Of a DNA stretch of 64,000 bases, positions 7,073 through 38,444 are shown piece after piece; the stretch's first letter is position 1; the number at the start of each line of letters is the position of its first letter. The stretch is from Paramacrobiotus metropolitanus (lineage: Eukaryota; Tardigrada; Eutardigrada; Parachela; Macrobiotidae). Under the pieces are notes generated by a model that saw only the letters and a list, made by a program, of their open reading frames with translations, made no database searches and was not told where the DNA came from. The position numbers were made by a program, and so were the translations under genes. Location of the stretch: contig NW_026570221.1 of the NCBI RefSeq assembly GCF_019649055.1, forward strand, positions 744,001-808,000, given 5' to 3'.

Positions 7073-10000
7073 TTAGAGCGCATTGATGGCCCGGCCCAGC
7101 TCGTTGACCGCCACCGCCGGTCCGCCGGTGTCCGTGAAGCAGCACCAGTGTCCCATCTTACACTGCGGCGACTTGGAGACCCGCTGGTTCTTGCAGCGCA
7201 CCCGCAGGTCGCGCGTCGGCATGCACAGGCCGTTGGTGATGTCCGGCTTGCTGTTGGGCGTGCACTGCGTCTCCCCGCTGGCCACTTCCGGGGTCGCGGG
7301 GACCTCGGCGGTCAGGACCGGCGGTGGTTGGGTGGCGGCCGGGGGTTCCACGATGACGTTGGACTCGGCGGGGTCGCTAAAGCAGCACCAGCTGCCCATG
7401 TCGCAGTCCATGGAGGGCGAGGCCTTCTGGTCCACGCAGCTGGAGCGCAGTTCCCGGATGGTCATGCACTTGCCGTCCTTCACGGCCGGGTTGGAGTTGG
7501 GCGAGCAGATCTTCACCGGCATCTGCACCGCCGCCACGATCACGGAGACGCCGTCCTTGTTGGGGGAGGACACGCTGACGGAGGCGCCGCCCTGGGCGGG
7601 CGGATTGACGTTGACGGAGACGGCGGGTTGGGAAGGGTTCGGGAGGTTGACGTTGGGTTGCTGCTGGTTGGGAGGGTTCCCGTTAGATTGTTGCTGGTTA
7701 GGGAGATTCACGGGAGCTTGGTTGTGGTTCTCCTCGCCTTGGGAAACGCTGACCGACACCTGCGGGGGGTTGACGTTCGGCTGCTGGTTCGGGAGGTTCA
7801 CCGGCGGCTGTTGGACGTTGACGGCGACCTGTGGAGGGCTAACGTTCTGTTGCTGCTGTTTATCGTTGGATGCCTGGTCGATGGTCACGGACACCTGGTT
7901 CTGGTTTCCGGATTGGGCGGAAGCCGATCCGGCGGCGCTGGCGCCCTGTCCCTGTCCGACACTGACGACCAACTGACCATTTCCGGTCGGGACCTGCACT
8001 TCCACCTTCTTGGAGACGTCCGAGGCGCCGTTCACCTGGTTGGCAGTGTCGCTGACCTTGCTGGCGTCACCGGCCGCGCTGTCCGCGCCGGCCACGTCAT
8101 CGTAGCAGCAGAAGCGGCCGAAGGAGCAGTCCTTGGAGACGGAAGCTTTCTTTTCGATACACTGGACACTGAGCTGGCGCATCGTCAGACAGATGCCGTT
8201 GTGGACGCTGGGGTTCTCGTTCGGAGTGCAACTGACCACTCCCGGAAGTTTGACATCGGTTCCGGAGCCTGTTCCCTGGTTTTTGTTCGCGTCAGAGCCG
8301 GCGCCGGAATCGTGGTTGTCGGGCGCCACCGCTTCCTTGTTGACGGTCTGGACGTCGGCGGGAACGATGGTCTGGACGGCCGGTTGCGGCGCTTGTGCCG
8401 GGGTCACGTTCTCCGGGAAGATGCAGCACCATTCCCGCGCCTGGCAGTCATCGGATTTGGCGGCGGCGCGGGCTTTGCATTCCTTGGCCAAACCGGATGT
8501 GGAGACGCACTGGCCAAGTTGGGCGCGGTTGCTGTTGGGGTGGCACTGTTTGATGGCGAAGGATTCCGCGGACGGTTGCGCTGCTTGTTGGGGTTGTTGA
8601 ACAGGCGGCTGTTGAATCGGTGGTTGCTGAATCGATGGCTGTTGAACCGGCGGCTGTGGCTGTTCCTGTTTGGTCTCCGTCGGGGCTTCCGACGCGGAGA
8701 AGCAGCACATTTCCCCGCTGGCGCATCCCGACGCCATCTTCGTCATACTGAGCGATCGGCATTCGGAGGACAGCTGGGATTTCTGGACACACTTGCCGGT
8801 CACCCCGGGGCGATTGGATGGTTGACAGCTGGCGCGGCTGCCGACTTGCTCGCGGTTGGGAGCCGGGCTGGCGGCGTACGGGGCATAGGTGGTGGTCACC
8901 GGCGCGGGTGTCGGGCCGCCTGATGGTGGCGATGGGGTTGGGCTGCCGGAGGGAGGTGCTGGTGTCGGGCTTCCGGAAGGCGGGGCTGGTGTTGGGCTGC
9001 CTGACGGCGGAGCCATAGTGGGACCGGGAGTAGGCCCCGGAGTTGGTCCGGGAGTAGGCGGCGGACCTGGAGTCGGACTTGGTGGTGCCGGAGTGGGACT
9101 TGGCGGAGCGGGTGTTGGGCTTCCGGAAGGAGGAGCCGGTGTCGGGCTTCCCGAGGTTGGTGCGGGAGTCGGGGTGGGACTTGGTGCCGGTCCTGGCCCG
9201 GGTGTTGGGCTAGGCGCCGGAGTTTGTCCGGGTGTAGGCGCTGGTGTCGGTCCGGGAGTAGGCGACGGGCCTGGAGTGGGACTTGGTGGAGCGGGTGTCG
9301 GGCTTGGTGGTGCCGGAGTCGGACTAGGTGGCGCGGGCGTTGGACTTGGAGGTGCCGGTGTGGGACTGGGCGTCGGTCCGGGTCCGGGTGCCTGCGTCGG
9401 GCTGGGGCTGGGTGTCGGTCCTGGTCCTGGTGCCGGTGTCGGGCTACCTGACGGCGGGGCCGGTGTGGGACCTCCGGAAGGCGGTGCGGGTGTCGGGCTA
9501 GGACTAGGCGTCGGCCCCGGTCCGGGTGCCGGTGTCGGCACATTCAGAAAACAACAGAACTGACCGTTAGCGCACTGATTGGACTTGGACATCTGTTTGC
9601 CGCGACAGTTAGTCGTCAGCATGTTTAGATTCCAGCACACGCCGTTTGTCACCGTGGGGTTGCTCAGCGGCGAGCAGGCACCGCCATTCATCGGGGTGGT
9701 GGTCACCGGACCCGGTGTCGTCGTCACCCCGCCAGCGGGAGGTGTCGAGCCGGATCCCCCGGACGCCGTAGACCCTCCGGGAGTCTGCGTGGTCCCTCCG
9801 GGCGCCGGTGTCGGGCCATTCCCGCCTCCTCCGGGGCTGGCGGTGGTTGCCGTTGACGGGACGTTAAAAAAGCAGCACTTTTGACTGGGTCCGCAGTCAG
9901 AGGACAGTGACAACTGCAGGGTCCGGCATTTTTGGGCGATTTGGGAGTCATTGACGCAGACGCCGTTCTTGACGGACGGTTGGGTGCGGGGCGAGCAGGC

Positions 10001-12981
10001 CTTGCCGGTCGGGAGGTAGGGCCCGCTAGTGGTACCGGTGCCGCTTCCACTGCCGCTTCCGCTGCCGTAGCCACCGCCCGTGGCGGTCCCGGTGTTGCTG
10101 CTGCTGCCATAGCTGCCACTCGTGCCGCTCCCGGTGCCGGTACCGTAGCCGCCCGAGGAGGCGGCGTTGTTGTTGTAGGCGTCGCTGTACACGTTGGAGG
10201 CGTCCGAGTCGAAGAAGGAGTCGTCTACGGAGGGCTCGTAGCTGGGGAACATAAACTCGATGTCCATCGGGCCAAAACCGTTGGGTGGTGCTGTGAATAG
10301 GACTTGTTAATTTTTATGTAAGGTTTCTTAAGTTGGTTTCTTAAGGGGATCCCTGTGAGATGAAAGTGGGTCTGGCAAAACATGAATAGGTTAAAAACAA
10401 CTGGAAGATCATTGTTTCCATTGTTCTGACTGCATGCGCAAAGGGTTTGGCTACACAATGGTGTACTGCGATCTTGTCTACGCTCTCTCTGGACAGAGCT
10501 ATTCAAGAAACAAAGGAAAAACTTTGAATTCAAAAGTCGAATGAGAAAGTTTTTTCAAATTAGATGTGATACACATCATTGGATGTGTTTTAGCCTAGAA
10601 AGCTTATATTCTCCAACATGCTAATAAAAAATGTTGTTAGTTTACAAAAAAATCGAGAAAAACACTTTTTGAAAAGTGTTTTTTTGAGTTTATTCAAACA
10701 TGCCTTATTGAACTATGGCAGTGTCTCGGTATATAAGATTTCTAGAAAATAACACATTATCTGATGCCCATTTGGAAAGTGTAGCAAGTTTTACAATGGA
10801 GTTATCGATTTTTAAAGCCATTTCACAAGTTTTTGGAAAACGGCAGCTGAATGAAAGGCTTGCTGACTGACCGGCAGCAATGTGTGGCAGAGCCGGTTAC
10901 CCAAGCCCGCGTTTTGCAGGATAGAGATCAGACAGAGCATAGCTAGAGAGGGAAGAATCAGCTTGGCTCCGGCCACAGGACAGCATGAGGCGTTCTGTTC
11001 TGCTGTCCAGGCCTATCTGCCATGCGGCTGGCCATGGCTAGCCGATAACATCATTGCACTTACTTCGCCTATGCTGACCCGGTCTTGTTTTTTTACTAAT
11101 AACTTATGATCGCAATACAATATATCCCATCGAGACATACTATTTGAAAGCCCGAAAAATTTCCTACAAGCTGATGTTAATATCGATAACCCATTTATAT
11201 GAATGTCATCTCATAGTGATCCCCTTAAGTGATGCGGCATTAAGGTAAAAATCGCTTCATCAATGAAGCTACCGACAAAATTGAAAAAAACTTTCTATGC
11301 GCTTTTGTTCCATAAAAAACTGCACAAAAAATTCATACGAGTAGCATGAGAATTTAATAAACAATATATATTTGATTAATAAAGACAATGGATATCTAAG
11401 AAAGATAAAAATATTTGTATAGAAAAAAGTCTATTAAATTTTACATTTTTTTTTAGATGAAAAACTATCTACAGTCTGAAGTTCGGTGCTCGATAAAACA
11501 TTCCGCAGCTCGATGCAACTATAAACTGTTTAAACTATAAACCTCAGTTGTTTTTCATTAGTGTCTATCAGCGCGGTCTCCTTGTTATGCTAGTTCGCTG
11601 TTGCCTGAATAAAAGTAAAATAAAGTGTTTTAAAACTACTCCGTTAGACTTTTTATATACAGATTCAATACGATTTTCCAGTTAATCTATTTTAGCAGAA
11701 AATCCCATAACAACGCCCATTAAAGCGTGGATGGTTGTTATGCAAGTTTTATAGAAGTCGATATTGCATAAATGCATTGATAATATTTTTGTCCTTCTGT
11801 ATACATACAACTTTAGCTAAATCCGCTTATTACGAAAACCATAATATTATTTTCATGAACATCAGTAAGTACTATAAATGCCGGTAATGCCAATCAGAGG
11901 AAAATGCTAAAAAACTGCGCAGTCTAACTCGTCACGGATCGAATAGCAATCCGTAGCGTTATTAGGGTTAACTACCCTGTCCATCACTTGTCAAGAAGAT
12001 GCAGCGTCTTTCGAAAGAGTCGGAAAAAAAGCTTTATGTAGAAAAACAGTCCGAAAACTACCGCATCGCTGTATCGATACATAGTGGCTAGAACGTTATT
12101 TCTTGAACTTACATGGCGGCCGCGGCATCTTCGGCATTTTGTTGGGGTCATTCTCGTAATTGCCAATGTTAGGCTGCGGCATCGGCCGGGGCGGTCGCGG
12201 CGGCACCGGCGGATTCGGCAGCGCTACAATCAGATGAAATGCACTTTGCAAACTTTATCAAATTATTCCGATATATATGTACATAAAGTTATAATACAGT
12301 AATTATGACAATCGTGTGCAATTCAACCGGAGACAAGAACTACAATGAATACTTTAAGAAACTTGATGCTAATTTTCCGGTTGGCTTCCTTTAAACCCTT
12401 TGAAAGGATAATAATTGAAATATAACAGCGCATTAACTGCCAATAAATTGACGTAAATAGTTGCAGTTATTCCAGATATAATCGTAGTTCTGCAGCAAAC
12501 ACTGAATATGATGCATTCGATTACCGGTATAATAATGTCAGTTCCGTATATTAGTGTTTACGAACACATTTGGCGAATAATCTTTAGGAAATTAAAATAA
12601 AATACATAAAAATGATTTTATTGCAAAATTGATTCTATCAAATACATGGACGCGCGAAATGTTTGGCCAAATATTCGGGAGCTGCCCGAAAGTCGGTGAG
12701 GTTAAAAAGAGACAGGATAACTGTCGACAACGGCAGACCGCAGACGTACCTATTTTCACCCGCTGTTGGGAATTTTGATTAATATCCATGGAGTTGAACA
12801 TGTAGTCGAAGTTGTCCTGATAGTTATCGTTACTGCTCGTCCCGTAGGCCGAGGAGGAGACGCTGTTGTAGGAGGAGCCCGGGGAGGAGTAGGCGCGGGC
12901 GCTCTTGCGCGCCTTGACGGCGGCGCAGACGCCCAGGGCGCAGGTCAGCAGGAGGAGCGTTGCGCACGCGCGCCCGCCCAT
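7073..12981 (-). CDS. Secreted multi-module six-Cys mucin-like protein (intact family member, three exons)
   Basis: The exons 12981-12750, 12223-12113 and 10290-7073 join in phase at GT-AG sites to a 1186-residue protein. Residues 1-21 ([20 protein letters not shown]) are a signal peptide. Exon 1 continues Ser/Tyr/Asn-rich and exon 2 is Pro-rich. Seven modules of pattern C-x(11,12)-C-x9-C-x10-C-x5-CC lie at residues 213-254, 320-361, 603-644, 697-737, 802-843, 1043-1084 and 1124-1165. Modules 2 and 3 are separated by about 240 residues of PTPAPPSP-type repeats, likely O-glycosylated. Modules 5 and 6 are separated by a Gln/Asn/Val-rich linker. The pattern with its final CC is CLIP-like in outline but spaced differently; I know no named match. 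Long open frames on the opposite strand are codon shadows. It probably belongs to an extracellular matrix, cuticle or gut lining (inference). A second in-frame ATG lies upstream at 13038, but paralogues support the MGG start. Confidence 0.88.
8890..9545 (-). repeat. Coding minisatellite for the Pro/Thr linker
   Basis: Repeats of 6-30 bp encode [16 protein letters not shown] and PTPGPGPTP units between modules 2 and 3 of the secreted protein. The region is open in several frames on both strands because of its codon periodicity. Its length is likely to vary between individuals. Confidence 0.85.
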
Positions 12982-13008
12982 GCTGGCGACGGGATGGTGT
13001 GGAGGGAA

Positions 13009-13017
13009 AGCGCGGGC
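13009..13017 (-). promoter_or_regulatory. GCCCGCGCT box upstream of the intact family member
   Basis: The sequence reads GCCCGCGCT on the minus strand, 28 bp before the ATG at 12981. The same box lies 30 bp before the ATG of four array copies, followed in each by GTCGCCA just before the start. It could be a core-promoter or 5' leader element. Confidence 0.6.
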
Positions 13018-14947
13018 AGCACGCAAATCACAATACAATCAGATGGGGGTGTGAGGTATCCGGCTGGAACAGGGACTCTCATGCAGCGCCAGACAATCGT
13101 ATTATACAGGTACAGGTTATACTATTGTGATTGTCTGGTTAATTAAGTGTGCCGCGCGAATGACACCACACGGATCCGCTGCAGCGATGGATGTGACTGT
13201 GGCCTTAAAGCTGCATTTTGACCCGCAATCCGCGCTTAGTATTCTTCTGCCTCGTCAAGTTCACGATCACTGTACTGTACTATCAGGTATGCTGTGTGTT
13301 GCATGTGTGATTAATGGCCGGTACGGATGGTGATATGCGGAGCGGCTGCGTGCGTCGGATTTGGCGGAAAAAGAGAAGAAGATACACACCGCACTCGACA
13401 ACACCGTACATACAGCACACAAGAACCACAATTCGCCCGCGGGCCACCAACAAACAGATACCGTCAGCCGTATATCGATTGTCGATTGATGATGGTCAGA
13501 AACGGAAATTATTCATATTCACCGTTGTTGACTAATTTCTGTCCAACTGACCTACAGAGCACTGCGGCCAGTGAACACGGCGCGATCTCTCATCGGCAGC
13601 CTAGTTCCACTTTTTGCCCTATCGCTGCTAACCGTATCAACACCAACCCCACCGACAACAGTTAAACTAAAGTTGATCACTGGTAATGTGCGGATGTCTG
13701 TCTGTGTTCGGGCACCGATTTACGGATTTACATGAGCCCGATACAAAAGAGTCGGGTTCGTCATGCACTGCCATCCCTTTCCCAGATTAGGCATTTTATG
13801 CGGGAATAACACGCTTCGCACGGCAGTGAAGCTTTGATTGTTCGTTAAAGCGACGGAATGTGCGCGTGATGTGATGATAGAAACAACCAGCGAGGGGTAC
13901 ATTGAAACCGGAAGTCAGCCTTCATACATGTGGCTATGTTTACCATGCGGCATGCGTGCCGTTCGTATCTGTACGGCGAGCGAAGACTGCGCAATGTCCG
14001 CTATCAGGTCGATGAACGGCGTACACGGCCATATTCTGGTAACAGGCAACGAATACGCCGTCTAACGCAGGCATGTCAGAGGCGGACCATCGGCTAACAC
14101 TTGGACAACACTGCTTCTAAGCCGGTGTAAATACAGTTAACAGCCACGGCTTTAATTTGCGAAGGCCATTGCCAATATAATGTTGCCCATAATTACCACA
14201 GAAACAATCCAGCTAATTCTCGAAATTTAAATCAGTCATAAAAATCAATTCACTTTCATAAGAAACCATTCATAAAAAACCTCACACACCTTCATACAAA
14301 TCAGTTCACTTTCGCTAATTGTATAAAATCATTTGCAGTTGTACTACCTCAGTATACAATACATAAAAATATAGTATAGTTTTAATTTTTTTCCACGTCG
14401 GAGTGAGGACTGTATGAACAATATTAGCATATATTTCTCTACTTGAAACCTTCCCAAAATTAATGCATGGTCGGTAGTGGGTACTTCATCAACATTACCG
14501 AATAGGCGAATACAAATTACCGTAAAGCGCATCACAGGTAGACTGCATGGTAAGTACAGAGTACATATACAGATACAAATAGTGACGAAAGACAACTGGT
14601 CAACACTCAACACTAAAACCGGTTTAATACGCGCGCGAAAATGTATACCGCAGTTCGCAGTAGCATGTTAAAAGCGCTGTCACGGTGTATGAGCTTCATT
14701 CATAGTATACGCTGCCACCCGAAGGAGGACACACTTAGCGCCTTTTGTCCGCCAGTTGCACAAGCAAAAGCGGGAGATCCATGCTGCGCCACTGTGCGAG
14801 AATGCGGTGGCATGCGGACGGCGGCTACATAGGGCGTCATGAGATCGTGTTTCTGATTGAGATATCATTCATAACGTACCGGCTCCGCCGTCCGGACACA
14901 CCCGACGCTCACCGTGTCGGCGTAACAGCGGCGTTATCATGATACAG

Positions 14948-15038
14948 TACATTAATCTTGAATAATATTCAAGATTAATGTATCATGCACCTTGTTGCAC
15001 CAAAGGTCACATATATATAAATGTGACCTTTGGTGCAA
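14948..15038. repeat. Two adjacent perfect hairpins
   Basis: Arms 14948-14963 and 14967-14982 are perfect 16-bp inverted repeats with a 3-base loop. Arms 14995-15012 and 15021-15038 are perfect 18-bp inverted repeats around an 8-base AT loop. Perfect arms in otherwise decayed DNA suggest recent origin or selection. Confidence 0.8.
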
Positions 15039-15351
15039 AATCAAATACTATATTGTCCCGATTTCTGGGTTGTTTGGCACTGAGAAGCTGTCCGTTCAAA
15101 CACCGTGTTATACAACCGATAATTTATCAATGCGAAAGAGAGTTCTTTTCGGGAAGGAACTCGGCGCCAAAGAGCATGCTAATGCAACAATTGCTAATCA
15201 GATACTAAGTCGATACTTGCTAATCAGATAAACGATACTAAGTCTTAATACATTTTTGTAAATCCAGTGTTAAATTCTAATTAAAATTGAAAGTTAAGAA
15301 TAATCTTCATTGGGATAAGTCCAATGTACCACAGACGACAGAATGCAGCTA

Positions 15352-15400
15352 TAATACAAAGGACGCTCCAAAAGTAAGTTTCGCTATTTTGCCTCCCTGC
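15352..15400. repeat. Putative transposon end, copy 1
   Basis: Contains acaaaggacgctccaaaag followed by taagtttcgctattttg. The same block recurs in the same orientation at 16483-16532. The composition resembles mariner-type termini, but no transposase was found. Confidence 0.4.
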
Positions 15401-16482
15401 CATCTGAAGTAATGTACAACAGATATATTTTTTGTTAAATAAGCAATTATGTGAACTAACCAGGAAAATAAGAATCAAATGGTCTGATGAAAAACGGGAG
15501 AAAGGAGAAATAAAATGGCTCGTGCCGCTTTTTCAGTTTGTCCACGGACTTTTTAAAACCCGATTCATTCTTGCATCACTTCCGCCCGAGTCAAGTTTTC
15601 GACAATGAATTAAAAGTGTTAATAGCAAATTGTATGCCTAATATTTCTCTAGTCGCAGATCATCTTGGAAAGTTCAAGAGCCTGAGTAAAAATTTTTTTA
15701 CTTGGGACACCACATTTTGTCTTGTTCAGCCTTCTCGCTCCTATGAATTCAAGAGTCTTTGCTTCAATGAAAAGAACATTTTATGCGCATCTAAGATACC
15801 AATTGACTTTAAGTTACAGCGAGGACAATAATTTTTTCCCATTAAATTTAGATTTTTTCAGCGTCTGGAAGTAGGGCAGCTTTGTGGGTTTTGCTCCTAG
15901 TCATCGATAGTTTCTATTTTCCCAGAAAAACATTATGGGTAGGTTCTTTTGTTTATTAATTGAGATTAGAAGAGAGAAGAATACTCAACTTGTGGACGCT
16001 TAGTGCGTTACAAAAAGTTAAGAGGATGTTTGAGAAAAATTGCAAAAACTGTCTTGCCATCCAACAAGCCCAAGATCAAAGCAGAGATGCGGATGGTCGC
16101 GGGCAAGGTTGCTGACGGTGTAGTAAGACCATTAACCGGAAAATTGGTCACCGGTCTTACTACCCCGTCAATATCCTTTCCAGCATCTGGAAGCCATCAA
16201 ACAGTATCATCAGTTTTGGAACTATCGGTAAATTATTATTATTACTTTTTTCATGATGCAAAAGTGTCCATTATTATACAATCTAAATACAGTGATTTAA
16301 GAAAATTAAATAGCAGTCTCTGAATGATAGATTGTTTCTTTGTAGCTGTGTATGCATTTAAAACAGGTATGAATCTAAAAAAGTAATGATGTTTCCGATC
16401 ATGTCGGGTCAAACTGTATGCTGACAGCCGCCTGTATATCTTTCTGTAAGTACATATTATAGCTTCTCCCTGTAAGTACATA

Positions 16483-16532
16483 CAAAGGACGCTCCAAAAG
16501 TAAGTTTCCCTATTTTGTATCTCCCAGCACAA
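16483..16532. repeat. Putative transposon end, copy 2
   Basis: Near-identical to the block at 15352 (acaaaggacgctccaaaag), in direct orientation about 1.1 kb away. Direct rather than inverted orientation points to two separate insertions or a duplication. Confidence 0.4.
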
Positions 16533-16548
16533 AGGCCTTTAGCTGTTA

Positions 16549-16911
16549 TTATCCATACAGATATAAATGCCCTTCACTAAGGAACCGAAGAAAAATATAA
16601 CTTAGTTTAAGTACAATCAAATGGAAAGAATTGCCAAAAAAACCATCGACCACTTTTCGCACTTGTGCCACGGATTTTACGCACTCCCGGGCCAAATGTC
16701 CAAACTTCCCGCACTTATAACAACTGCGTTGACCTCTTGGGGTTTGGCTTCCCTGTAAGACCACTCCCTCCAGGTTTAGCCGTAGCCGGTCGACTCGCCG
16801 ACTCTCCATCCTCACCGCTGAACGGATTCCGTCCAAACGTGCGGTCCAGCACAATCGTAGTGGCAGAGCTGCCCCACGCCTAACGACCGGTGCGGAGCGC
16901 TCCGCGGTCAT
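16549..16911 (-). mobile_element. Retroelement gag-like fragment with CCHC zinc knuckle
   Basis: A 120-codon open frame contains CYKCGKFGHLAREC (at 16722-16681), a canonical C-x2-C-x4-H-x4-C zinc knuckle, preceded by a basic Arg-rich stretch. Zinc knuckles of this type are typical of retrotransposon nucleocapsid proteins. No protease or reverse transcriptase follows on the minus strand, so this is a fragment. A cellular CCHC protein is possible but less likely in this repeat-rich gap. Confidence 0.6.
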
Positions 16912-17500: not shown

Positions 17501-18639
17501 CCACCATTCGCGTAATTAAGGACTTTGTTCTAGCGTACTATGTAATGCTAACAGCCTAACACCATTAATTTGGTTTTATTTCAATGTTTGCACTAACTTT
17601 TGGATTTCGATACGTATACGCTCTGCTAAAAGGTTCTTGGCATGGCATTTTGCCATAATCATTACTTAAAATACAATTATTCGTTTTTCAAGTCTAACGC
17701 TAATAAATTTTTATACAGCGGTGCAATTTTCTCTACAGTATACATAATTGCGTGCATTTTAAGGATGTTGTTCTGTAATTTGTTCGGTAAAATATCATGT
17801 GGACAGAAGGCTGTTACAGGATTTTATACATTAACCTTCACATTAGGGTGCAATGAACATACCCGACTGTCCAAACTCATAACGCTACTGGCATCACACG
17901 GAATTTTAAAATAAATCCAAGTTTAAAACACACAGCATCCAGTACGAGTACGAGTACGCGCATATATTTGTTTATTTCCAGTATCTTGTTGTTTTAGGTT
18001 TGTTGTAGTGATGTTTGTTTTTCTTTTTTACGAATTTTTCTGATTTGCTACGTGTACTAAATCCAACTGTCCACAAATATCAGCTATGGATCTAGTCGCC
18101 AGAGCTTGTTATAATGCTGCTAGGGACGCAGCAGTCAAGTCATGTCAGGAGGGAATTTCTGTTCTGGAATTTCTGTTCTGTGACTTAAAATTGTGAAGCA
18201 CTATGATCTTTTAAAATGTGGTTGAAGATACGCTAGTTTTTTGTGGACCGTAATTTGTCGAAACAGACGTTGAAAATACTTGGATATAACATTTTTGTCA
18301 AAATAAAATTTTCTGTAAAGTTAGTTCCCAGGTGTTCATCGCACCCAAATGTCCTCGTAGTAAGGATTCGTTAGTAAACTGGGCCTGATAATTACGCGAT
18401 AATTATATTAAATAACAGGTAATTGTATAATTAATAATAACATGTAACTGTATAATTAATACAATAATTGTCAAATTGACAGGTGTAATTGGTAATTATT
18501 ACCAGTACATCGCCATTTACCAGTATCTTTTTAACTATCACCGGGGTTTGCGGTCGTCGTTAATGTCGTTTCCCAGACCGCCGTAAAGCAAAACAACTCT
18601 TTCCACCCTACACCCATCGCTAATTGAAAAACCGCTGAC

Positions 18640-19180
18640 CTTTACCGCGCACTGTTAGGTCGTGCCAGGAACTGCACCGACCAGTGCTGATGCTCGGTTC
18701 GACCACAGGCGTACATAATGTCACCTCGGAGGTCCGCTATACCGTCCTCGGGGTCATCTCTGCAATGACGACGGGCGGGGCCTGTGTCTCGACCGGAGTC
18801 CGCTTCGTAAAGAATTCGCGCACAACGGACTGTGCCCAGGTTGACACTGCGAGGAGAAAATGAAGCGTTGACCTTTACAGTGAACGGTTTACTGGAGCTT
18901 CGCTGTGCACTCACCGTGGATGACGCCCAATTCGGCGTTAGGCTTGCAGTGCGTCCCCTCGGAGGTCGAACGGGGGCACCGCGGTGGTATAGCCGGCGGG
19001 CGGGGGCAGCCAGGTGTTCGTTCTCCTGAGGTTTTGGACAGGATGAAGAAGACAACACCAGTCTGTTTTCTGCACTGCGGCGGCTTGGAGATCCGCTGAC
19101 CGTTGCAGCGCGACGGCAAATCACCGAAAGGCTACACAAGCCAGTGGTGGGGTTGTGTTGGCTGCTATCCGTGCAGCATA
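18640..19180 (-). pseudogene. Relic of the six-Cys module family
   Basis: The minus strand carries degraded modules spread over different frames. CNGQRISKPPQC resembles the C3-C4 part of the last module of the array copies (CKGQQVSKSPQC). A further upstream half, HCKPNAELGVIHGEC, is followed by CKGQRFIFSSQC. Stops and frame changes are frequent. It lies just 3' of the 19902-22663 copy and is probably the tail of an older unit. Confidence 0.6.
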
Positions 19181-22663: not shown

Positions 22664-22692
22664 ACTGGCGACAGTGTAAATTGTGGAAGGAG

Positions 22693-24860: not shown

Positions 24861-24869
24861 TTCTCAAGT

Positions 24870-28390: not shown

Positions 28391-30469
28391 TTAACGGATC
28401 AACAAGATTTTAAAAACTCTGAGAAATTGTTACGAAAATTGTTTTTTCTCGGGACGGTACGTTCTTCGCTTCCAAATACAGAAAAACCCTGTGTTTTGTA
28501 AAAAAAAGGTATTTAGAACACTATGTAGAGCCCTGCACGAGCCGAGCCGCATGCTAACGTAACCTAAGTTGCATGCTAACGTTTTCAAAAAATATTTTCA
28601 TCCGAAAAGGTCAATATGCGATGCTGTTTCTCCGCATTCCGACTAACTCAGCCGGCATTGTTAAAGCTTACCAGCGCGTGCAGAAAACGTTTAAATGATG
28701 AACACGTTTACGAGGGCATATCGCAAGAAGTATTTTTTCCCCACGCAATAAAAGGCCGGTAAGTCAAGCAGTTGTTTCTGTGAGGAAATTCCACCCGCTT
28801 CATCAGCCGTTAGCGCATATAGCCCGGAAAGAAAGAAATTCCAGAAACTTTAAATGCCATTAGTTGTACAAAAAGCCTCATTATCGACGGATTTTCGTCA
28901 AATTCTTTGCACGTAAAAAAAACCTCCGTATCGAGATCACTAATGTCATACAGAGAACCTCGACTGAGTCGACTCTATCATTATCCATGATATTTTAGAA
29001 TGAATTTCAATTTTTATGCATGTTGACGAATTTTTGCACCATGTTCAGTACCGGGTCACTTCCTTTAATGCTGTTTTCTTCATTTTCTTCATGGCGTTTA
29101 TTTCTCTTTTTTTATCGTGAAATATTTTAGACATTGATCGTATTCCCGTGATGAGAAAATAATCACTGTTCAGAATGCAAAGTATAAAGTTGCTGTATCG
29201 AAAAACTAGCAAGAAATCAACTCATATCTATAGTGTTAACTTTTAATAAAATCCGCAAAGTTTTGATGGCAATTTTGCGTGTACACCCTGTAAATGAAAA
29301 ATCCAACGATAAACCGAAAGGTAATTAGGCAGTGATGAAAAAGCAAACAGTGCGGGCACCTTGCCAATGCAAGAGGGCGGTACGAAAGATGTACTGCGTG
29401 ACAGGCAAAGCGCTCGCGGGACATTTCGGCGTGGGACATTTCGTCCTCACGTTTTTCGTCGCAGCTGCTAATTTGTTCTGGGTCAACTCGTTTTGCAGCC
29501 GTTTCGTTCTACGAATTTGGTAGCGCGATTTTTGGGAGTAAAAAAAAAAATTATCGACAGGAAAAGGTAACGAACGAACAGTCATATTGCTATTTGCCAA
29601 AGAAACGCAGTTTTACATGCTCGAGAAAACATTTTAAAAAGTCTGCTATGTTTCAAGAAGTACAAAAAACGCACATAAAAAAGCTTGATTATTAAGGAAA
29701 AAATTCAAATTAACTCATTGCCTACAGCACCAGCCTACAGCACCAGTCGAAACATCGCCTGATGGCAAGTCCTCAAGCTTTAAGCCGCTACACTACGAAA
29801 TTTCTCTAAATAACGGAGCGTTTATGTCGTGAAAATGTTATAACCAAGTACAGTTGTACTCGTAGCATGGCACTAAGTATTAGTTTAATTACGTAGATCA
29901 TGAGTATAGTGGACAGCATCTCGAAAAAAGTATTAACAAACCAAATAAAAAAGTGACAAAGTATTATGTACCTATTATGGAGGTTGACTGCGTTGTACAA
30001 TGATTATGCATTATATTAATTTTTACATTCACAATTTTTTTCCGTTGAACCGCAGACAGTGCTGGGCACTACAGAGTCAGTTCACTAGACAAGTTAAGCT
30101 TATTAAAGCGAATTTTGATTCTATATCTCAACGTTGTCTTCGGCATCAGATACAATAATGCCACATCGAAATGTCTGTACAGTTATACAAACGTTACGAT
30201 ATTTCGAGAAACATCCAAAATCACTTGCGTAATGCGTAATCTTCGTGCTGGTTTACTATTTGTACAACATTGACATCATTTAGCGGTGACGTAGGATGCA
30301 GAATTACAGATACGTAAATACTGCATAAGCACCCGGTTGGTTTACCGGGCATTAAAGCTTACTGCCCGGGGAAAATATACAGTACTACTACAACAAGGCT
30401 AGGGCGACAAACTAGCATGCCCCAGCTTATTTTTTCGGGCTAGGTGTGAGGACAGCCACTTATTCCGTC
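28391..30469. other. Intergenic spacer with repeat debris
   Basis: No gene recognised. Fragments related to dispersed repeats occur near 28.88 kb (aaattctttgcacgtaaa), 29.05 kb (agtaccgggtcacttcc) and 29.79 kb (cactacgaaatttctc). Two tandem copies of cagcaccag lie at about 29726-29748. The final 80 bases match the 3' flank of array copy 1. Confidence 0.45.
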
Positions 30470-32596
30470 TCACTGGGGTGCGGAGACGGTACTTTGGACT
30501 GTGCTGCTGCCGCCCGGGAAACCGGCGACGTCGTTGGAGACGTCCGAGGCGGAATCGGAGGCATTAAAGCAGCACCAGTTACCGCTATCGCAGTCCCGGG
30601 AGGGTGACGCCCTCTGCGGATCTTCCACGCAGTTGGAGCGGACCTCCGCGACGGTCATGCACTTGCCGTCCTTGACGGCCGGGTTGGAGGTCGGCGAGCA
30701 GGTCGTTCCCGGCATTTGCACGGCCGCAACGATCACCGACACGCCGTCCCTGTTTGGCGGGTGCGCAGGGTTTCCGGCGGCCTGCTGTTTGTTCGGCAGG
30801 TTCACCGGAGGCTGGCTCTTCACCCCCTGTGAAACATTGACCGGCCATCGTGCCGGGTTTGCAGCTGCATGTTGCTGTTTCTCATTGCTCTCCACGCTTC
30901 CCGAGACCTGGTTGCCGGACTCGGCGGCGCCTGTCCCCTGTTTGACGCTGACGTCCAACTGACCACCTCCGGTCGGGTCCCACACTTCCACCTTCTTGGA
31001 GACCTCCACAGCACCGGCGCCCTTATCGGCTGCGGCCACGTCATCGTAGCAGCAGTAGCTGCCGGAGGTTCAGTCCTTGGACATGGACACGTTCTTCTTG
31101 TTGCACTGGGCGTCAAACTGCCACACCCTCAGACAGACGCCGTTGTGGACGCTCAGATTATCTAAGGGCGTGCAGCTGACCAGCGCCGGGAGACTGACGT
31201 TGTTGACTGCCGATTGCGTCGCTTGCGCCAGGGTCACGTTCTTTGCGATGACGTTCTCTGGGAAGATGCAGCACCATTCGCGTGGATGACAGTCATGGGA
31301 TCTGGCGGCGGCGCGGGCTTTACATTCCTTGGCCAGACCGGATGTGGAGACGCACTGGCCCCGTTCGGTGTGGTTGCTGGTGGGATGGCACTGTTTGATG
31401 GCGAAGGACTTTGCAGGCGGTTGTGTTGTTGGCTGGGGTTGTGGAACCGTCGACTGATTGTCGGACTCATCGGATTCATCGTTGTCGATACTAGACGACG
31501 CCCCGGCCAATGGTGCTTTGGTCTGCTGCACCGGAGACTCCGTCGTTTTCGGCGCGCTGAAGCAGCAGATCTCTGCTGCGCTACATCCCGTCGCCCTCTT
31601 GGTCAGGCTGAGGGCACGGCATTCCCGGGATAACTGGGTCACGGGGGCACATTTGCCGGTCACCCCGGGGTGGTTGGTCGGGTGACAGATGGTGCGGTTG
31701 TCCGCGGTTGTAAGGCCGGATGACGAAATCGTCGTTAGCGCGCCATCCGAAAGCGGCGCCGAGATCGTAGTGGACGTCGGCGTCTGTGAGGACCCAGTTG
31801 TTGGTTGCGGCCGACCCACGAAACAGCAGAACTGATGTGGTGCGCACTGGTTGGACTTGGACATCTGCGTACCGCGGCAGTTGGCCGACAGCTTATCCAG
31901 GTTCCAGCAGACTCCGTCCGTCACCCAGGGGTTACTCAACGGTGAGCAGGCGCCACCGTTTTGAGGAGTGGCGGTGTTCGGTGCCGGCGTTGTCGTCACT
32001 TCGTTGTCATCATCACCGTCGGCACTTCCGGACAGTGTCGCACCGGATCCTCCGGACACCGTGGGCGTGCCGAGTGCCGGCATCGGACTTCCAGGACTGG
32101 GCGTGGTCATGCCGGCACGAGAGGTGTTCCATGTCCTTAAGTCAGTGTCAAAGCAGCAGTGTTGGTTGGGTCCACAATCAGCGGACAGGGAGAGCTGCAG
32201 GAGTCTGCATTTTCTCGCAATCTGGTTATCCAGAACGCAGACGCCGCCTTCCACGGTCGGCTGGGTGCGGGGCGAGCACACTCTACCAGCTGGAAGACGA
32301 CTGATAGGACGGCGAGTACTAGCGCTGCTGTAGCCACCCGCGGCGATGGCGATGTTGTTATCAGCAGCGTCCGATTCGGAAGTGGAGTCACTGAAGCAGC
32401 ACCAAGTGCCGGTGACGCAGTCTCGGGAGGGTGACGCCTTCTCCTGGTCGCCGACGCAGCGGGAACGCACTTCTTGGACGGTCATACACGTGCCGCTCGT
32501 GACAGCCGGGTGGGAGGTGGGGATACAGCTGCGTGCAGTGCAAACGCCCAGGGCGCAGATTAAGAAAAAGAAGGTAGCGCACACGCGCCCGCCCAT
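30470..32596 (-). pseudogene. Array copy 3: seven-module six-Cys secreted protein with one Cys codon replaced by TGA
   Basis: A single intronless frame runs from the MGG start (32596) to a stop at 30470, with signal peptide MGGRVCATFFFLICALGVCT. Modules lie at 32396-32527, 32153-32278, 31823-31948, 31562-31687, 31268-31390, 31049-31174 and 30569-30700. The only break is TGA at 31072-31070, exactly at the fourth cysteine of module 6, where copy 1 has TGC. The frame after it is unchanged and keeps its cysteines. Relative to copy 1, the last two modules are deleted and the tail is GGSSTVQSTVSAPQ. It is either a very young pseudogene or a protein ending early at 31070. Selenocysteine recoding is conceivable but unsupported. 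Promoter box, TATA-like element and upstream block are intact. Confidence 0.82.
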
Positions 32597-32625
32597 AATG
32601 GCGACGCGGTAAAGGTCTGCAGTAA

Positions 32626-32662
32626 AGCGCGGGCTCCCAGTGTCCACTCACTTAAATATAAC
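32626..32662 (-). promoter_or_regulatory. GCCCGCGCT box and TATA-like element, array copy 3
   Basis: The box (32626-32634) lies 30 bp before the ATG at 32596. A good TATA-like sequence, gttatatttaag on the minus strand (32651-32662), lies about 20 bp further upstream, so transcription may start near the box. Confidence 0.6.
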
Positions 32663-32809
32663 GGAATCAAGTATTATGAAATATTACCAGGCAAACGATT
32701 CGTTCGTTCTTCAGCGCCGCAAATATACTGATTAGTGATTCTGATCGACGTCTCCAGTTAAGAAGAAACTTTCATAGCATTTGAATTTCCGAGTTAATGC
32801 GCGTGATGA

Positions 32810-32950
32810 GTGAGTAATCCTTCAGTTGCTTGTCTAACCCGGAACTCGGCAGTCAGTTTATCGCGCGTATGTGGTGGCTTAACCGGTCCGCAGCCGGATG
32901 CGCTACGAATTGACTACCGGTTCGTTGAACGGCGCACGACCGGCAACGGC
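32810..32950. promoter_or_regulatory. Shared upstream block, array copy 3
   Basis: Contains taacccggaactc, then gtggcttaaccggtcc, then cggttcgttgaacggcgcac. It is highly similar to the block upstream of copy 1, about 230-350 bp from the ATG. Confidence 0.5.
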
Positions 32951-33309
32951 AGCTGCTTCTGATCAGGAACGCAACATCAATCTACAGCACATTACATACA
33001 AACAAGCGTCATTATTTCAAAAACCGGCATATACAACTGTGCAGGAGAATTTCAACCTGTCGTGTCGCCGAATGATGCCAACAACATCTTCTCATACTTT
33101 TGAATGACGACGGCGCCTTCATTTAGCATACAATTTTCGGGTGAATCGTAACGGGGACAAAGATAAGTTCTAAAAAAATATGCAAACAAGAAATTATTAT
33201 ATACGATTATTACATAATACACCGTCGAGGAAGCTCGATGCGCATCTTTGATAATACTCGGTTGTGCAGTTTCCGAATAAAATCTGAAGATAATCAATTT
33301 GATGACGAG

Positions 33310-33490
33310 ATTCTTTTTATTTCATGCTGCGCGCAGAATGGGTTTCCACGTCAACGCACGCTAAATATACATGGCTATGCACGCTAAATATGGTAAAACA
33401 ATGCAAAAAGTTTGTAAGAGTGAGTGTAAAAGCGACAGTTTCCGTGTTTGTTACGGGAATTTGTTGCCCATTACCGGGTCACTTCCCTTA
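33310..33490 (+). repeat. Dispersed repeat A
   Basis: Contains tgctgcgcgcagaatggg and gagtgtaaaagcgacagtttc, and ends attaccgggtcacttccc, matching the copy at 24340-24510. Confidence 0.6.
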
Positions 33491-34129
33491 AAATTACTGG
33501 TGGGGTTATACTAACTTTTACTGGCTGGTCGTGCGTGGAACTATATCGACAAATGCGGATGCTGGATTCGACCCATGCCGGGCAGTTTGTCCCGGTGTCC
33601 CGCTATTTTGTCAACCGTCCCTTCGTCGAACAGACATGTTGTCCAACCGTCACGACTTCTAGCAAGTGTTTAGCTAAACCATCTTTAGCTATTAACACGT
33701 TGCTCATAAGCATCGCAGCTGGAATTGCTTATACAGCGCTTCCAAGGAGCAAACGGCTGTTCAGGTTGGAAAAGGTCACGAAGCAGTTATTATCATCATT
33801 GCCAGAATCGAAATCGAAATACCAGTCTACTGTGCGGCCAGATCGCAGGCCTAACTTATTAGAACGTCGTCCCGTAAGAACGGAAGAGGAAATGAAACCG
33901 AGATCAGGTTTAGAAATTAAATGGTCAGCTTTCGATAATGTGTCTAGTCATTATATGCTCTTGGGGAACTGGTCAAAACATGTACTCACACATAGACAAC
34001 CGCATGGACAACATTCATCCGCCTTAGTATAACTGATCAGTCTATCGAGCGTACGTGCAAACCGGAACTCCAGGGTCACCTTAACACCTTAGAGCCGGCC
34101 ATACTGACGTCGTATGACCACTGACAACC
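33491..34129 (+). other. Unrecognised open frame in repeat-rich spacer
   Basis: An open frame to 34032 (up to 194 codons from 33448) contains one hydrophobic stretch (LAINTLLISIAAGIAYTAL). It begins inside dispersed repeat A, and its end shares acaacattcat-type sequence with 6.0 kb. I see no family signature; it may be part of a repeat rather than a gene. Confidence 0.25.
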
Positions 34130-34645
34130 GATCCAGAACAGGAATCGTTACATGGCAAATGGCTGAACGGCCGTGTTCGTAACAGGGAAGGGGATGTCGG
34201 CAGCAGCCTACAATACAGTCTGAATATTTTTTATGGCCACTAGCGGCAATTGAGGAAATTGACCCGGCAAATTGTATCTACAACTTCGTGATACTTGCAC
34301 GAAAGGTTTCACTTTCTCGACTCCCAAAGACTTTTTTATATTGGCAGTATTTTTTATGACTTCATGTAGTCATACGATTTCGATACTCTGGTGTAACAGC
34401 CGTTTATGCGTGTAGCATTCGGTTGGGACGTTATGAGTGTGAGGAAATTCCAGAAAGTTTACCGCATTCACATGTATGAACACCTGGCCTCACCATCCGC
34501 ACCAAAAAGTTTCCTTATGGACCGTTCTTCTTCAAATTTTGTCTGAAAAGGCACGTAAGTAGTTTTTACAGCGGACCAAGGCTCTAGCATAGGCTAGAAA
34601 TCTTGTTCACATTACAGTTGATTATATGTACAACATCCGCAATAC
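34130..34645 (+). mobile_element. Dispersed repeat B, uninterrupted copy
   Basis: Contains gatccagaacaggaatcg, cgtgttcgtaacaggg, cactagcggcaattgagg and ttatggaccgttcttc, and ends tatgtacaacat. The same order is seen on the two sides of the hAT element at 25.4-26.7 kb, so it serves as the empty-site comparison. Confidence 0.6.
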
Positions 34646-34726
34646 AGCCACCGACACCGGCATCATAATGAAAGTACCACGCGCTGCAATTACACACCGT
34701 TCATTTTCCGTGCACAAAACATCCCG

Positions 34727-36156
34727 CTAGTCAACAATCATTACAATGGCACAGAATACTCGATATAAGCCAACAGCTTTTGTACACTGTTGGAAAAAGA
34801 GTGCCGGCCGCTGCTCGCTGCTCCAGGACGCCGTGGGACGCGGTGGCGTCGGCGCAACAGCACCAGTCTTCGCTTGTACAGTGCGGCGAGCTTTTGACCG
34901 ACTGTTTCTTACAGCGGACCCGGAAGTACCGCGTCGGCATGCTCTAACCGTCGCTGCTGTCCGGTCTTTTGTCGGGGCTGCACCGCCTCCGGGGTACTTT
35001 CGGCGGCTGAGAAGGACGGGATGGCCCTTTTCAGGTGATCCAAGAATTCCATGACGCCGGCGAGATGACTGAAGCAGCACCAACTGTCCTTGTCACAGTC
35101 CATGGAAGGAGACACCTTCTGCTGGTCTCCGAAGCACCGCAAACGCATCTCGGGTATGGTCATACACTTGCCGTCGAGGGCGGCGGGGTTTGATTCGGGA
35201 ATGCAGTGGCCTACCGGATGTATGGAGTCGTTGCTGAATCGTGACTTCTTGGACGCACTGGAACCGACGGTGTAGTTGCCGTGCAGCACCACGTTCCTTA
35301 CAGTGGACGCTTCGATCGATGGCTATTGGGGCTGGGGAAGTGGCGACTGGGAAGTAGACACCGGCGTCGTGCCCGATCCAGTATTCGGTGTCGGCCTAAT
35401 CACAAAGCAGCAGAACTGGTTGCGCTCGCACTGTTTGGACCTGGACATCAGTTTACCGAGGCAGTTAGCCTTCAGCATGCGCAGTTGCAAACAGACTCCG
35501 TCCGTCACCAAGGGGGTACTCAACGGGGAGCAGGCGCCACCGTTTTGAGGCGCCGGCGTCGTAGTTCCTTCGTGTACGTCGTCGGCACCTCCGGGCAGCG
35601 TCAAACCGGACCCTCCGGACGCAGCCGACCCTCCGAGCTCCGGCTTCGGACGTCCAGGTTTGAGCGTAGTAACACCGGCACGGAAGGTGGTCGATGCTCT
35701 AGGGACATTATCGAAGCAGTAGTATTGGTTGGGCCCACAGTCGGAGGACCGGGATATTTGAATGGTCCTGCATTTGCTGGAGATGTGGATGCCATCGACG
35801 CAGACGCCGTCCTTAAATGTCGATTGGGTGCGGGGCGAGCACGCTCTGTCGGAGAGATCTTCATCGACACGGTCAGCACTAGCGCTGCTGTAGCTGCCCG
35901 CGGGGCGGCGGTCTGGTTGTTGGTGGCGTCCGAATCAAAACTGGAGTCATTGAAGCAGCACCAACTGCCCGTGACGCAGTCCCGGGAGGGCGACGCCTTC
36001 TCGTGGTCGCCGACGCAGCGGGAACGCACTTAGGAGACGGTCATACACGTTCCGTTCGTGACAGCCGGGAGGGAGGAAGGGATGCAGCTGCGCGCTGTGC
36101 AGATGCCCAGGGCGCAGGTTAACAGAAAAGAAAGTAGCGCACGTCCGCCCGCCCAT
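34727..36156 (-). pseudogene. Array copy 4: heavily damaged six-Cys secreted protein
   Basis: The MGG start (36156) is followed by a frameshift within the signal peptide, so the Leu-rich core is read out of frame. Module 1 (35955-36086) has TAA in place of a Glu codon. Module 2 (35716-35841) has Tyr-Cys in place of Cys-Cys and sits in another frame. Module 3 (35407-35532) is intact. Next come a copy-1 module-8-like unit (35074-35205) and a last module (34857-34982) with TAG at its second-cysteine region. The middle four modules are absent. Tail sequence runs to about 34731. Clearly a pseudogene. Confidence 0.8.
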
Positions 36157-36185
36157 GCTGGCGACGGAGTAAAGATCTGTGGTAG

Positions 36186-36194
36186 AGCGCGGGC
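36186..36194 (-). promoter_or_regulatory. GCCCGCGCT box, array copy 4
   Basis: The box lies 30 bp before the ATG at 36156, with the GTCGCCA leader between, although the coding part is dead. This gives an unconstrained reference for the element. Confidence 0.55.
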
Positions 36195-36584
36195 TGTACA
36201 CCATGCTCAAGCGGTCATAAAAAAGGATCCGAATAAGAAACGTCTTGCTGGACGAAACAAAGAGATGTCTCACGTAGTAAGTTCCAAAGCGCAATGAGAA
36301 CAAGAATATCTACTCTAGGCAATCAATCACAATTCACAAACACCTTCTCGACACTGCCGATACAGCTGAATCGCCTAAGAAAAATTAAATATTCGGTGGA
36401 AAATTCTCCTGCCATGGAATAAGTGATCTCGCCGGTTTATAGCGAAATCCTCTTTCCGCTTGCGGTCTATGAAGGAACTGTTGTAATTTGCCTCAGCACT
36501 GGAGACATCGTTCACAGATTAAATCAATCACTTGCATCGTCTTCACATTTCTATGAGTCGGTGCGCCCGCTGACAGATGACTTT

Positions 36585-36725
36585 TCAATCTGTCAGTTGA
36601 ATTATGTCCAACCCGGAAGTTGGAAAGCAGTATATGGCACATATGTAGTGGTCAAACCGGTCAGCAGCAGAATGTGCTTCGAATTGGCTGCCGGGTTCGT
36701 TCAACAGCGCACAAAGATTTCAACG
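36585..36725. promoter_or_regulatory. Shared upstream block, array copy 4
   Basis: Contains ccaacccggaagt, then gtggtcaaaccggtcag, then a gttcgttcaacagcgcac-like part, 430-570 bp from the ATG. The plus frame 36423-36752 across it is similar to one at 28223-28501, which probably reflects DNA homology only. Confidence 0.5.
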
Positions 36726-36934
36726 GATCAACAACAATTTTACAAATTCTGAGGGATTGTTACGAAAATTGTTTTTTGCTCAGCAAGGCACTTTTTTCGA
36801 TTCCTAATCCCGAAAAATCTCATCTTTTGTAAAGTACTCGCAGATAGAATACTAACCCAATATGCCTAAAGATATTTTTATCTGGAAAGGTGAATAGGCA
36901 GAGCTATTTGTCCGTATTCTGACCGACTCAGCCG

Positions 36935-37070
36935 GAATTTGTCCCGTAATTTCCGCCGCAATTACGGGGCAATTCCGGGACAATTACAGGACAAATTACG
37001 GGGCAATTTCTACCGCAATTACGGTAATCCGTAATACTACTTTGTCCCGTAATTTCTAGCGCATCAACAC
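36935..37070. repeat. Cluster of TTGTCCCGTAATT palindromic repeats
   Basis: Several direct and inverted copies of gtcccgtaatttc / attacggggcaatt are packed into about 130 bp, forming alternative hairpins. It lies between array copies 4 and 5. Confidence 0.75.
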
Positions 37071-37260
37071 ATCGAAAACTGCAGAAGTCAAGGGTTACGC
37101 CAAACTCCATACCACGGCGCACTACGCCCCACTAAACATGCTCTACACGCATCTGGCATGCCTAATGTATGCCAAATATCCATCTAAACTATAAACGATA
37201 CTATAGACCTTTAATGGGTATCACATGTAAGTACAGAATGAGTACTAAAACAAACGAGAT

Positions 37261-37700
37261 TTAAAGCAGAAACACTTCCTCAATGCTATCCTGCTCGGGG
37301 ATTGTACCCATAACACATATCGCGTTTCCCCGTTGCATTTGGATAGATAACCGCTGTCTAAAAAACTCTTTCGCCTGTTTCTGGCCTGTAGCAGAGGCGA
37401 TACCGTTTCCGACCTTTCGCACTAAAAGTTTAGTCCCGTTACTCCATGGGCCATAAATTTCGAGCGCTGCGGTGGTGAAATTGTATCTCGATTGCATCCA
37501 GGCATGTTTTGCCAGTTTTCTTCTTTCTGCTTGTTCGGCTACAGCCCCAACGTTTAGCGAAGGTGCGCTCAGTGTACGAAGCTACAAGTGTATCGACGCA
37601 CGTCACGTCCACTGCTAGCGGTTTTCCCGTTCTCACGGTACTAGTGTGATCACATCCGGCCTCTTGTTACCTTTCGCGGATAGACCTTTCGGTTCCATTC
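37261..37700 (-). mobile_element. Retroelement C-terminal fragment with RPD...DVT motif
   Basis: Across three frames the minus strand reads KRPDVITL, then GKPLAVDVTCVDTL, then AEQAERRKLAKH, then FRQRLSIQMQRGNA and a stop. This order (RPD, AVDVT, AE.RK..K, RLS..QRGNA) is what I know from the C-terminal part of many invertebrate retrotransposon polyproteins, resembling a PD-(D/E)xK nuclease core. At least two frameshifts make it a dead fragment. Three shorter copies of its last part lie at 37.9, 38.9 and 58.2 kb. Confidence 0.6.
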
Positions 37701-37919
37701 TTGCGGGGAAACCGGCCGTCTTTAACCCGCGAGTGAACTGCCCACTAACTATAAAATATCACTAGAAATTATATAATATTAACTTTTCTTCTTTATAATT
37801 AGATATGCTGGGAGTAGTGAATTTATTATTGTGGTGGACGCAGTGCAGTGTGGACTTTAAGATTGACCTTTAAGAAGTATCATGATGCGAGTACAAAATA
37901 AGTACCAAACAAAACAGCA

Positions 37920-38020
37920 TTATAAAACAAACACTTCCTCCATGCTATCCTGATCGGCGATCGTACCCATCACACAAATAACACAAATCACGTTTTCCCG
38001 TTGTATTTGGATAGATACTC
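37920..38020 (-). mobile_element. Short copy of retroelement C-terminus
   Basis: Reads LSIQIQRENVICV, an ICV duplication, then MGTIADQDSMEEVFVL and a stop. It is a diverged duplicate of the end of the fragment at 37261. Confidence 0.6.
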
Positions 38021-38300
38021 ACAATCGTTCATAGCGCAACTTCGCGCTAAATACCTAAATACTTGTACGCGCTAAACACCTTCGCGATTGAAATTACGGG
38101 CAAGCTTGGACATCACAGCATCCACAGTAAACTGTATACAGGACAACACCTCCTTTCGGCGCACGGCTGATATGCAACTGATATTTATTTGAAAACTACT
38201 TCCCCGTTATTATTCTGTTACTGTCAGAGATTCCATTCTACAATTTCGTCCTACCAGTTCAGCAAATCATCTACAGTTTGTTTTGTTTTTTGGTTTGATG

Positions 38301-38444
38301 GACGCAGCGCGAACGCACCTCCTGGTCGGTCATACACGTGCCGTTCGTGACGGTCGGGTGGGACGTGGGGATACAGCTGCGGGCAGTGCAAACGCCCAGG
38401 GCGCTGGTTAGCAGGAGGAATATAGCGCACACGCAGCCGCCCAT
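38301..38444 (-). pseudogene. Array copy 5: signal peptide and half a module only
   Basis: From the MGG start (38444) the frame encodes a signal peptide (MGGCVCAIFLLLTSALGVCT) and the first three cysteines of module 1, to VRSRCV. Homology then breaks at 38301 and unrelated sequence runs to a stop at 38271. The 5' box and leader are intact. It is the outermost remnant of the array. Confidence 0.75.

Follow-up and report, generated by a model that had tools for sequence, protein, structure and literature searches.

A gene cluster built from a six-cysteine module

The 64,000-nucleotide stretch of the genome of the tardigrade Paramacrobiotus metropolitanus analyzed here (contig NW_026570221.1, positions 744,001 to 808,000; hereafter the window, C1:744001-808000) carries on its minus strand a cluster of genes for putatively secreted proteins, which are composed of repeated copies of a module with six cysteines, the last two of them adjacent. 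A six-frame scan of the window found 26 stop-free modules with all six cysteines on this strand between positions 7139 and 35532, and the strict pattern C-x10..12-C-x9-C-x9..12-C-x5-CC, which occurs 26 times in the window, was found 0 times in 100 dinucleotide shuffles.

The only intact gene of the cluster, gene A (7073..12981, minus strand), encodes a protein of 1186 amino acids in three exons, whose splice sites were predicted from the sequence. Exon 1 (12981-12750) codes for a hydrophobic N-terminus that we judge from its sequence to be a putative signal peptide, exon 2 (12223-12113) is Pro-rich, and exon 3 (10290-7073) carries seven modules, corresponding to slots 1, 2, 3, 4, 5, 7 and 8 of the module order in the family. 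The exon borders are GT/AG and the reading frame is unbroken across all three exons. By coordinate, the modules lie at 7139-7264, 7382-7507, 8105-8230, 8423-8545, 8702-8827, 9551-9676 and 9872-9997, and all seven were recovered by the iterated module profile with E values from 1e-7 to 1.6e-16. The linkers between them (873 residues, with the first 20 residues of the protein left out) consist to 42.7% of Pro, Ser and Thr and contain no cysteine; slots 2 and 3 are joined by a mucin-like linker (8828..9550, minus strand) that is rich in Pro, Thr, Ser and Gly and is encoded by tandem-repeat DNA. The protein ends 21 residues beyond its last module, and no serine protease homologue (SPH) domain follows the array in frame.

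Five damaged copies lie on the same strand. Copy B (22663-19902) retains the signal peptide and all nine slots (0 to 8), with frame shifts in slots 0 and 3, while copy C (27872-26694) retains the signal peptide and slots 0-3, beyond which follow unrelated sequence and stops. Copy D (32596-30470) comprises the signal peptide and slots 0-6, slots 7-8 being absent, and has a nonsense codon in slot 5, where a TGA (31070-31072) stands at Cys4 exactly where its relatives have TGC; a reading of this TGA as selenocysteine was considered, and copy D carries other damage too. In copy E (about 36195-34857) slots 0, 1, 2, 6/7 and 8 are recognizable, slots 3-5 are missing, one cysteine is lost, and a TAA in slot 0 as well as frame shifts interrupt the frame. 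Copy F (about 38495-38280), found by profile search and inspection of the frames, is reduced to the signal peptide and one half of slot 0. Further modules survive as relic fragments at 18623-19131, also on the minus strand (profile E values 6.7e-7 and 0.003). With copy D as query, none of the matches listed lay on contig C1 outside the window cluster. An earlier note on this DNA, made from the letters alone, had described the locus as a tandem family of one intact gene and five damaged copies with up to nine modules, mucin-like linkers and a near-identical signal peptide, and all of this was recovered here, the signal peptide being present in A, B, C, D and F and readable across a frame shift in E. 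Its account of the cluster holds for copies A to F, but it overlooked the relics at 18623-19131, the plus-strand gene at 60663-61148 and the genome-wide family described below.

Duplication under constraint followed by decay

A tree of the modules (FastTree, about 42 columns, slot 0 not included in the clade test) grouped each of slots 1-5 into a clade of its own across the copies (4, 5, 3, 3 and 2 modules, respectively, supports 0.81-1.0). Slot 7 formed a clade with a support of 0.58, and slot 6 was not monophyletic, three of its members lying within a clade of five. Slot 8 grouped with the last module of the array on contig C26 (support 0.875), which is 69% identical to slot 8 of gene A and 52% to that of copy B, and the similarity suggests that the C-terminus of the window family is probably common to C26 as well. 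The slot-wise grouping between copies therefore indicates duplication of whole genes with the module order kept. In the damaged copies the signal peptide leads straight into slot 0, which gene A does not have, and for this reason an origin of the copies as retro-copies of gene A is not supported.

Pairwise ratios of non-synonymous to synonymous substitution (dN/dS, Nei-Gojobori) between copies ranged from 0.20 to 0.43 in all ten comparisons, calculated over shared in-frame modules of equal length (42-251 codons) and excluding linkers as well as frame-shifted and partial slots. The copies were under purifying selection before they decayed, and diversifying selection among them was rejected on these values, contrary to the changing selection that had been proposed in the earlier note. 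The history of the locus accordingly ran from duplication of whole genes through divergence under constraint to the decay of five copies, leaving one gene intact.

Module pattern and predicted fold

Spacing statistics were drawn from 158 module rows of the window and the genome, with the 6 rows of a decayed copy on contig C36 left out. The full six-cysteine pattern with Cys5 and Cys6 adjacent is present in 138 of the 158 rows; the remaining 20 are truncated or disrupted by damage, show no Cys1 within the matched stretch or carry an extra cysteine. In all 138 full modules the C3-C4 spacing is 9-12, and in 127 of them the spacing between C4 and the CC pair is 5. The module profile comprises 42 positions.

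Modeling with AlphaFold2, for which 27 window modules served as input, gave predicted local distance difference test scores (pLDDT) of 91.7 and 90.9 for two different modules. In the predicted structure a strand bearing Cys2 is followed by a helix of seven residues, which ends before Cys3, then by a short strand and by a last strand that carries the CC pair; the second model has an extra first strand at Cys1. The earlier note knew no family with the spacing of the module, and in line with this neither the modules nor their profile had a significant match in Pfam. Matches to Phage_NinH, EB, Dickkopf_N, PRY and DUF7043 were weak, scattered over one or two members each, and were treated as chance.

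The module family across the genome

The assembly (169.8 Mb, 533 contigs) was searched with the window proteins and with a local iterated profile run over the fetched stretches, and at an E value below 0.01 at least 164 module rows were found across the window and 16 loci. The largest array spans 29 kb (C26:1003263-1032154) and comprises 98 module rows, of which 96 have a length of 36 residues or more. The rows lie in long open frames and form two blocks of 21 and 77, with 6.5 kb between them. These blocks are apparently two giant genes, as judged from their frames; the last frame stops 26 residues past the last module and contains no SPH domain. Contig C14 carries eight rows in two frames (2 + 6), and isolated modules were found on C1, C6 (2), C30 (2), C33, C62 (4), C68, C102 (2), C107 and C116. 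The decayed copy on C36 (153.8-157.0 kb, locus L015) resembles the C-terminal modules of the C26 array.

The plus-strand gene at 60663-61148 of the window, found in the six-frame scan and thus on the strand opposite to the cluster, encodes a small protein that has a hydrophobic N-terminus and a single module, in which the spacing between C4 and CC is 7. It belongs to a single-module subfamily with relatives at C1:4255287 and on C30 (2), C33, C62 (4) and C116. Matches of this protein to chains with EGF domains had E values of 0.63 or worse, and an EGF-like assignment was disregarded. No protease was found in the module's frame in the window gene, in C26, in C14 or in the single-module genes, downstream exons not being excluded by this search. 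Six short peptide patterns each, which detect close relatives only, retrieved no relative from bacterial/archaeal or viral contigs.

Modules upstream of protease homologues

The clip domain of arthropods is a three-disulfide regulatory domain that precedes serine proteases and their inactive homologues, with its cysteines paired 1-5, 2-4 and 3-6. Two of the modules on contig C6 (C6:1602069 and C6:2121105), in which the Cys2-Cys3 spacing is 11, likewise lie N-terminal to trypsin-like domains. In one gene (L010) the module and the start of the protease (RILNG ... CGGALIDDIHVITSAHC) occupy a single open frame of 468 residues and are about 117 residues apart; PF00089 matched this frame with an E value of 4.4e-7 and the following exons with 2.9e-10 and 0.023, the last of these being below the significance cut-off. 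In the other gene (L011/L021) the module stands, as read by eye, 45 residues ahead of RILGGLEAF in the same frame, for which Pfam finds no match, and further downstream come a His exon (PF00089, 2.3e-4), an Asp exon and a Ser exon. The joining of exons in both genes is predicted from the genomic sequence.

At the active site both genes read DTC-x2-DGGSPL-x-C (CMRDGGSPLIC in L010, CDLDGGSPLVC in L021), so that the catalytic Ser is replaced. In the PDB, the active-site exon of both genes matched 2b9l best, a prophenoloxidase activating factor that we take to be PPAF-II, with an E value of 3.8e-7 in one (next match 0.0011) and 0.00027 in the other (next match 0.003). According to excerpts of the literature, PPAF-II is classed among the inactive clip-A SPHs (PMC11172050), and GDGGSP is also carried by honey-bee SPH37 and cSPH42 (PMC1761132, Table 1). 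When a C6 active-site exon was used as a genome query, the other C6 gene was the best non-self match (7.2e-10), followed by a weak match on C47 (5.1e-4), in a genome where scoring of 150 out of 449 candidates gave at least 162 trypsin-like matches with E values of no more than 0.001.

The C6 modules and the window modules retrieved one another. In genome-wide six-frame protein searches L010 matched slot 3 of copy D (1.2e-5), and L011 matched the same slot (3.7e-5) and C26 (1.7e-6); in the reverse direction, copy D matched L010 (6.2e-5) and L011 (6.6e-4). A profile made from the 26 window modules only gave the two C6 modules scores of 18.7 and 28.3 bits, which in each case exceeded all 500 shuffles with fixed cysteines. 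These searches say that the C6 modules and those of the window are the same module. In addition, a Pro-rich exon behind a phase-1-compatible AG acceptor, with two bases between the AG and the first codon, was found in five of eight genes (the window gene, C26 block 2, L010, L013 and L016), while C26 block 1, L011 and L012 gave no clear sign of one. Because phase-1 introns behind signal peptides are common, this exon is supporting but not decisive evidence for a shared gene build.

By the working definition used in insects, as given in passages of two papers, a clip has six cysteines, the last two adjacent, and is placed on the N-terminal side of an S1 protease or homologue (PMC1761132, PMC11172050). 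The C6 modules would qualify as clips by this rule, and the two C6 genes appear to be clip-SPH-like. The likeness to CLIP domains that had been pointed out earlier is therefore better founded now, with two relatives N-terminal to protease homologues, whereas the suggestion of an entirely unknown kind of module is not supported.

Origin and possible role of the module

From what was computed directly, namely the array, the intact gene, the damage, the genome-wide family, the module upstream of SPH-like domains and the purifying selection, we infer with moderate confidence that the module is a divergent clip-type domain, which in this tardigrade was separated from its protease and multiplied to form giant modular proteins. 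Both its descent and its mode of action are probably those of a clip domain. This reading rests on architecture because the similarity to arthropod clips is weak and the fold searches were empty, and the clip-type membership of the protease-free copies would in turn follow from their homology to the C6 modules. The module that precedes a protease-like domain in the two clip-SPH-like genes would have been multiplied without an in-frame protease to seven to nine copies in the window family, to 21 and 77 rows in C26 and to 2 + 6 in C14, and would also have spread in the form of small single-module proteins. In the multi-module proteins, each bead may be a small rigid disulfide unit offering the docking surface that a clip offers once, and stiff linkers of Pro, Ser and Thr, probably O-glycosylated, may hold the beads apart. 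The whole protein could then act as a multivalent extracellular binding scaffold, for which the cuticle, the eggshell, a gland secretion and the body cavity are candidate sites.

Several results weigh against a clip origin. The C2-C3 spacing is 9 in 136 of the 138 full modules, the value that the earlier note had singled out, 11 in the other two and never 5. PF12032 had no match in the genome, in a search whose control was uninformative in that no control genome gave a signal; PF18398 had four genome matches, the best at 0.205 and none at module loci, and against the modules themselves its best values were 0.76-0.78, for one C107 module (1 of 119). Alignment of module profiles to three PDB clips with hhalign gave a probability of 4.6% and an E value of 0.0087 over 15 columns; 4 of 150 shuffles reached its local score with either profile, and its global score was reached by 10 of 150 when the window profile was used and by 150 of 150 with the larger one. 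When the window profile was compared with individual clips, the shuffles that reached the score numbered 2 of 498 for 2ike and 3 of 498 for 2xxl, but 283 of 500 for 2ikd. Foldseek and VIA-align found no clip fold in the PDB for either model, a negative of little weight for 48 residues and no positive control. Within the protease part, 2b9l ranked first for none of the three start and Asp exons of the C6 genes: the start exon of L010 matches TMPRSS2 best, its Asp exon acrosin, and the Asp exon of L021 trypsin, with 2b9l second. Among the trypsin-like matches of the genome, those at the two C6 loci were examined for an adjacent module, and the disulfides, the glycosylation, the secretion of the C26 products, the scaffold role and the tissue are putative.

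These points bear most directly on the explanation that the module is an independent six-cysteine domain born in tardigrades, which was fused upstream of an SPH by chance and resembles the clip through convergence on a bead ending in CC. The lack of a significant sequence or fold match between clip domains and the module would be expected under this explanation, as would a C2-C3 spacing other than five in all 138 full modules. However, in the two genes with 2b9l as the top match of the active-site exon the module is placed N-terminal to the SPH-like domain, G-x-C at Cys2 and a Pro near Cys1 are common to the module and the PDB clips, and two of the three PDB clips came near the top of their shuffles; we consider an independent origin unlikely, if still a serious contender. 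A slightly smaller chance is given to an immune function, in which the multi-module proteins would be docking platforms or decoys for a clip-protease cascade in the body cavity and would hold many of its members at once. Such a role would agree with the view, expressed in passages of PMC4676143, that clips may serve in protein-protein interactions or in the regulation of protease cascades, and with the retention in the genome of SPH-like genes with the same module, but the 77-row block of C26, the Pro/Thr-rich linkers and the lack of an in-frame enzyme look more structural, and the dN/dS values give no sign of diversifying selection.

It might also be argued that the damage in the copies reflects errors of the assembly and that the genes themselves work, the cluster then consisting of six functional genes. 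The published assembly was, as far as excerpts of its description (PMC8277472) go, built from Nanopore reads polished with nanopolish and Pilon, so some of the frame shifts in the copies could be assembly errors, and the low dN/dS among the copies would suit functional genes as well. Polishing errors, however, would not readily account for the nonsense codons of D (TGA for TGC) and E (TAA), for the missing 3' ends of C, D and F or for the lost cysteine of E, and six working genes appear improbable to us.

Should the module be a divergent clip as we favor, a regulator of immune and developmental proteases of arthropods would have found a second use outside that phylum, as a building block present in many copies, and the module would help in dating the clip-SPH system. 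Pfam annotation overlooks it, no model matching, and the family supplies a list of probable secreted tardigrade proteins, with the cuticle, eggshell, gland or hemocoel as candidate sites. More tentatively, and with somewhat less than even confidence, we suggest that tardigrades freed the clip from its protease and built from it giant extracellular fibers, protease-free and with up to about 77 clip-type beads. If so, a clip-SPH system with Ser-to-Gly homologues would predate the split between arthropods and tardigrades, and an immune regulatory domain would have been turned into a structural building block.

Neighboring sequence in the window

Between gene A and copy B, a minus-strand stretch at 16670-16725 reads, as seen by eye, CYKCGKFGHLARECVK, which we take to be CCHC zinc-knuckle-like and which is perhaps a retroelement remnant. 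An inverted repeat around TTGCACCAAAGGTCACAT at 14950-15040 (minus strand), also noticed by eye, is possibly a small transposon. Ordinary neighbors of the cluster are an exon of a G-protein alpha subunit at 42513-42974 (minus strand; PF00503, 1.1e-20) and a HIT/DcpS_C protein at 53588-54208 (plus strand; Pfam, 2.5e-23).

Comparison with known systems

In the literature, which was partly covered and without subscription papers and preprints, we found no description of the module or of a tardigrade clip domain. Like the module, the arthropod clip (PF12032; 2ikd, 2ike, 2xxl) has six cysteines, the last two adjacent, in about 40-50 residues, with G-x-C at Cys2 and a Pro near Cys1, and it takes the position N-terminal to S1 domains that the module takes at the two C6 loci. 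The size of the module, its C3-C4 spacing of 9-12 and its cysteine doublet are within the published clip ranges, given in parts of two papers as 30-70 (37-55) residues and, for group 1, a C3-C4 spacing of 8-17 (PMC1761132, PMC4676143). In contrast to the arthropod clip, the module has a C2-C3 spacing of 9 or 11 instead of 5, shows no significant profile or fold match, and at loci other than the two on C6 has no protease in the same frame. The C6 genes share with 2b9l the replaced Ser and DGGSP, and 2b9l is the top PDB match of both active-site exons, whereas other C6 exons match other S1 proteins better; the comparison with 2b9l covered its protease part.

A further parallel to the window family is offered by masquerade (PF18398). 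In passages of PMC1761132 the C2-C3 spacing of clips is five residues in most cases, the sole named exception in the bee being the masquerade homologue cSPH41, whose build is 5[clip + low-complexity Ser/Thr-rich linker]-SPH. Masquerade and the window family have in common multiple modules, low-complexity Ser/Thr-rich linkers and a C2-C3 spacing other than five. Unlike masquerade, the window and C26 proteins have no SPH domain in frame at their end, and they string together 7 to about 77 modules instead of five.

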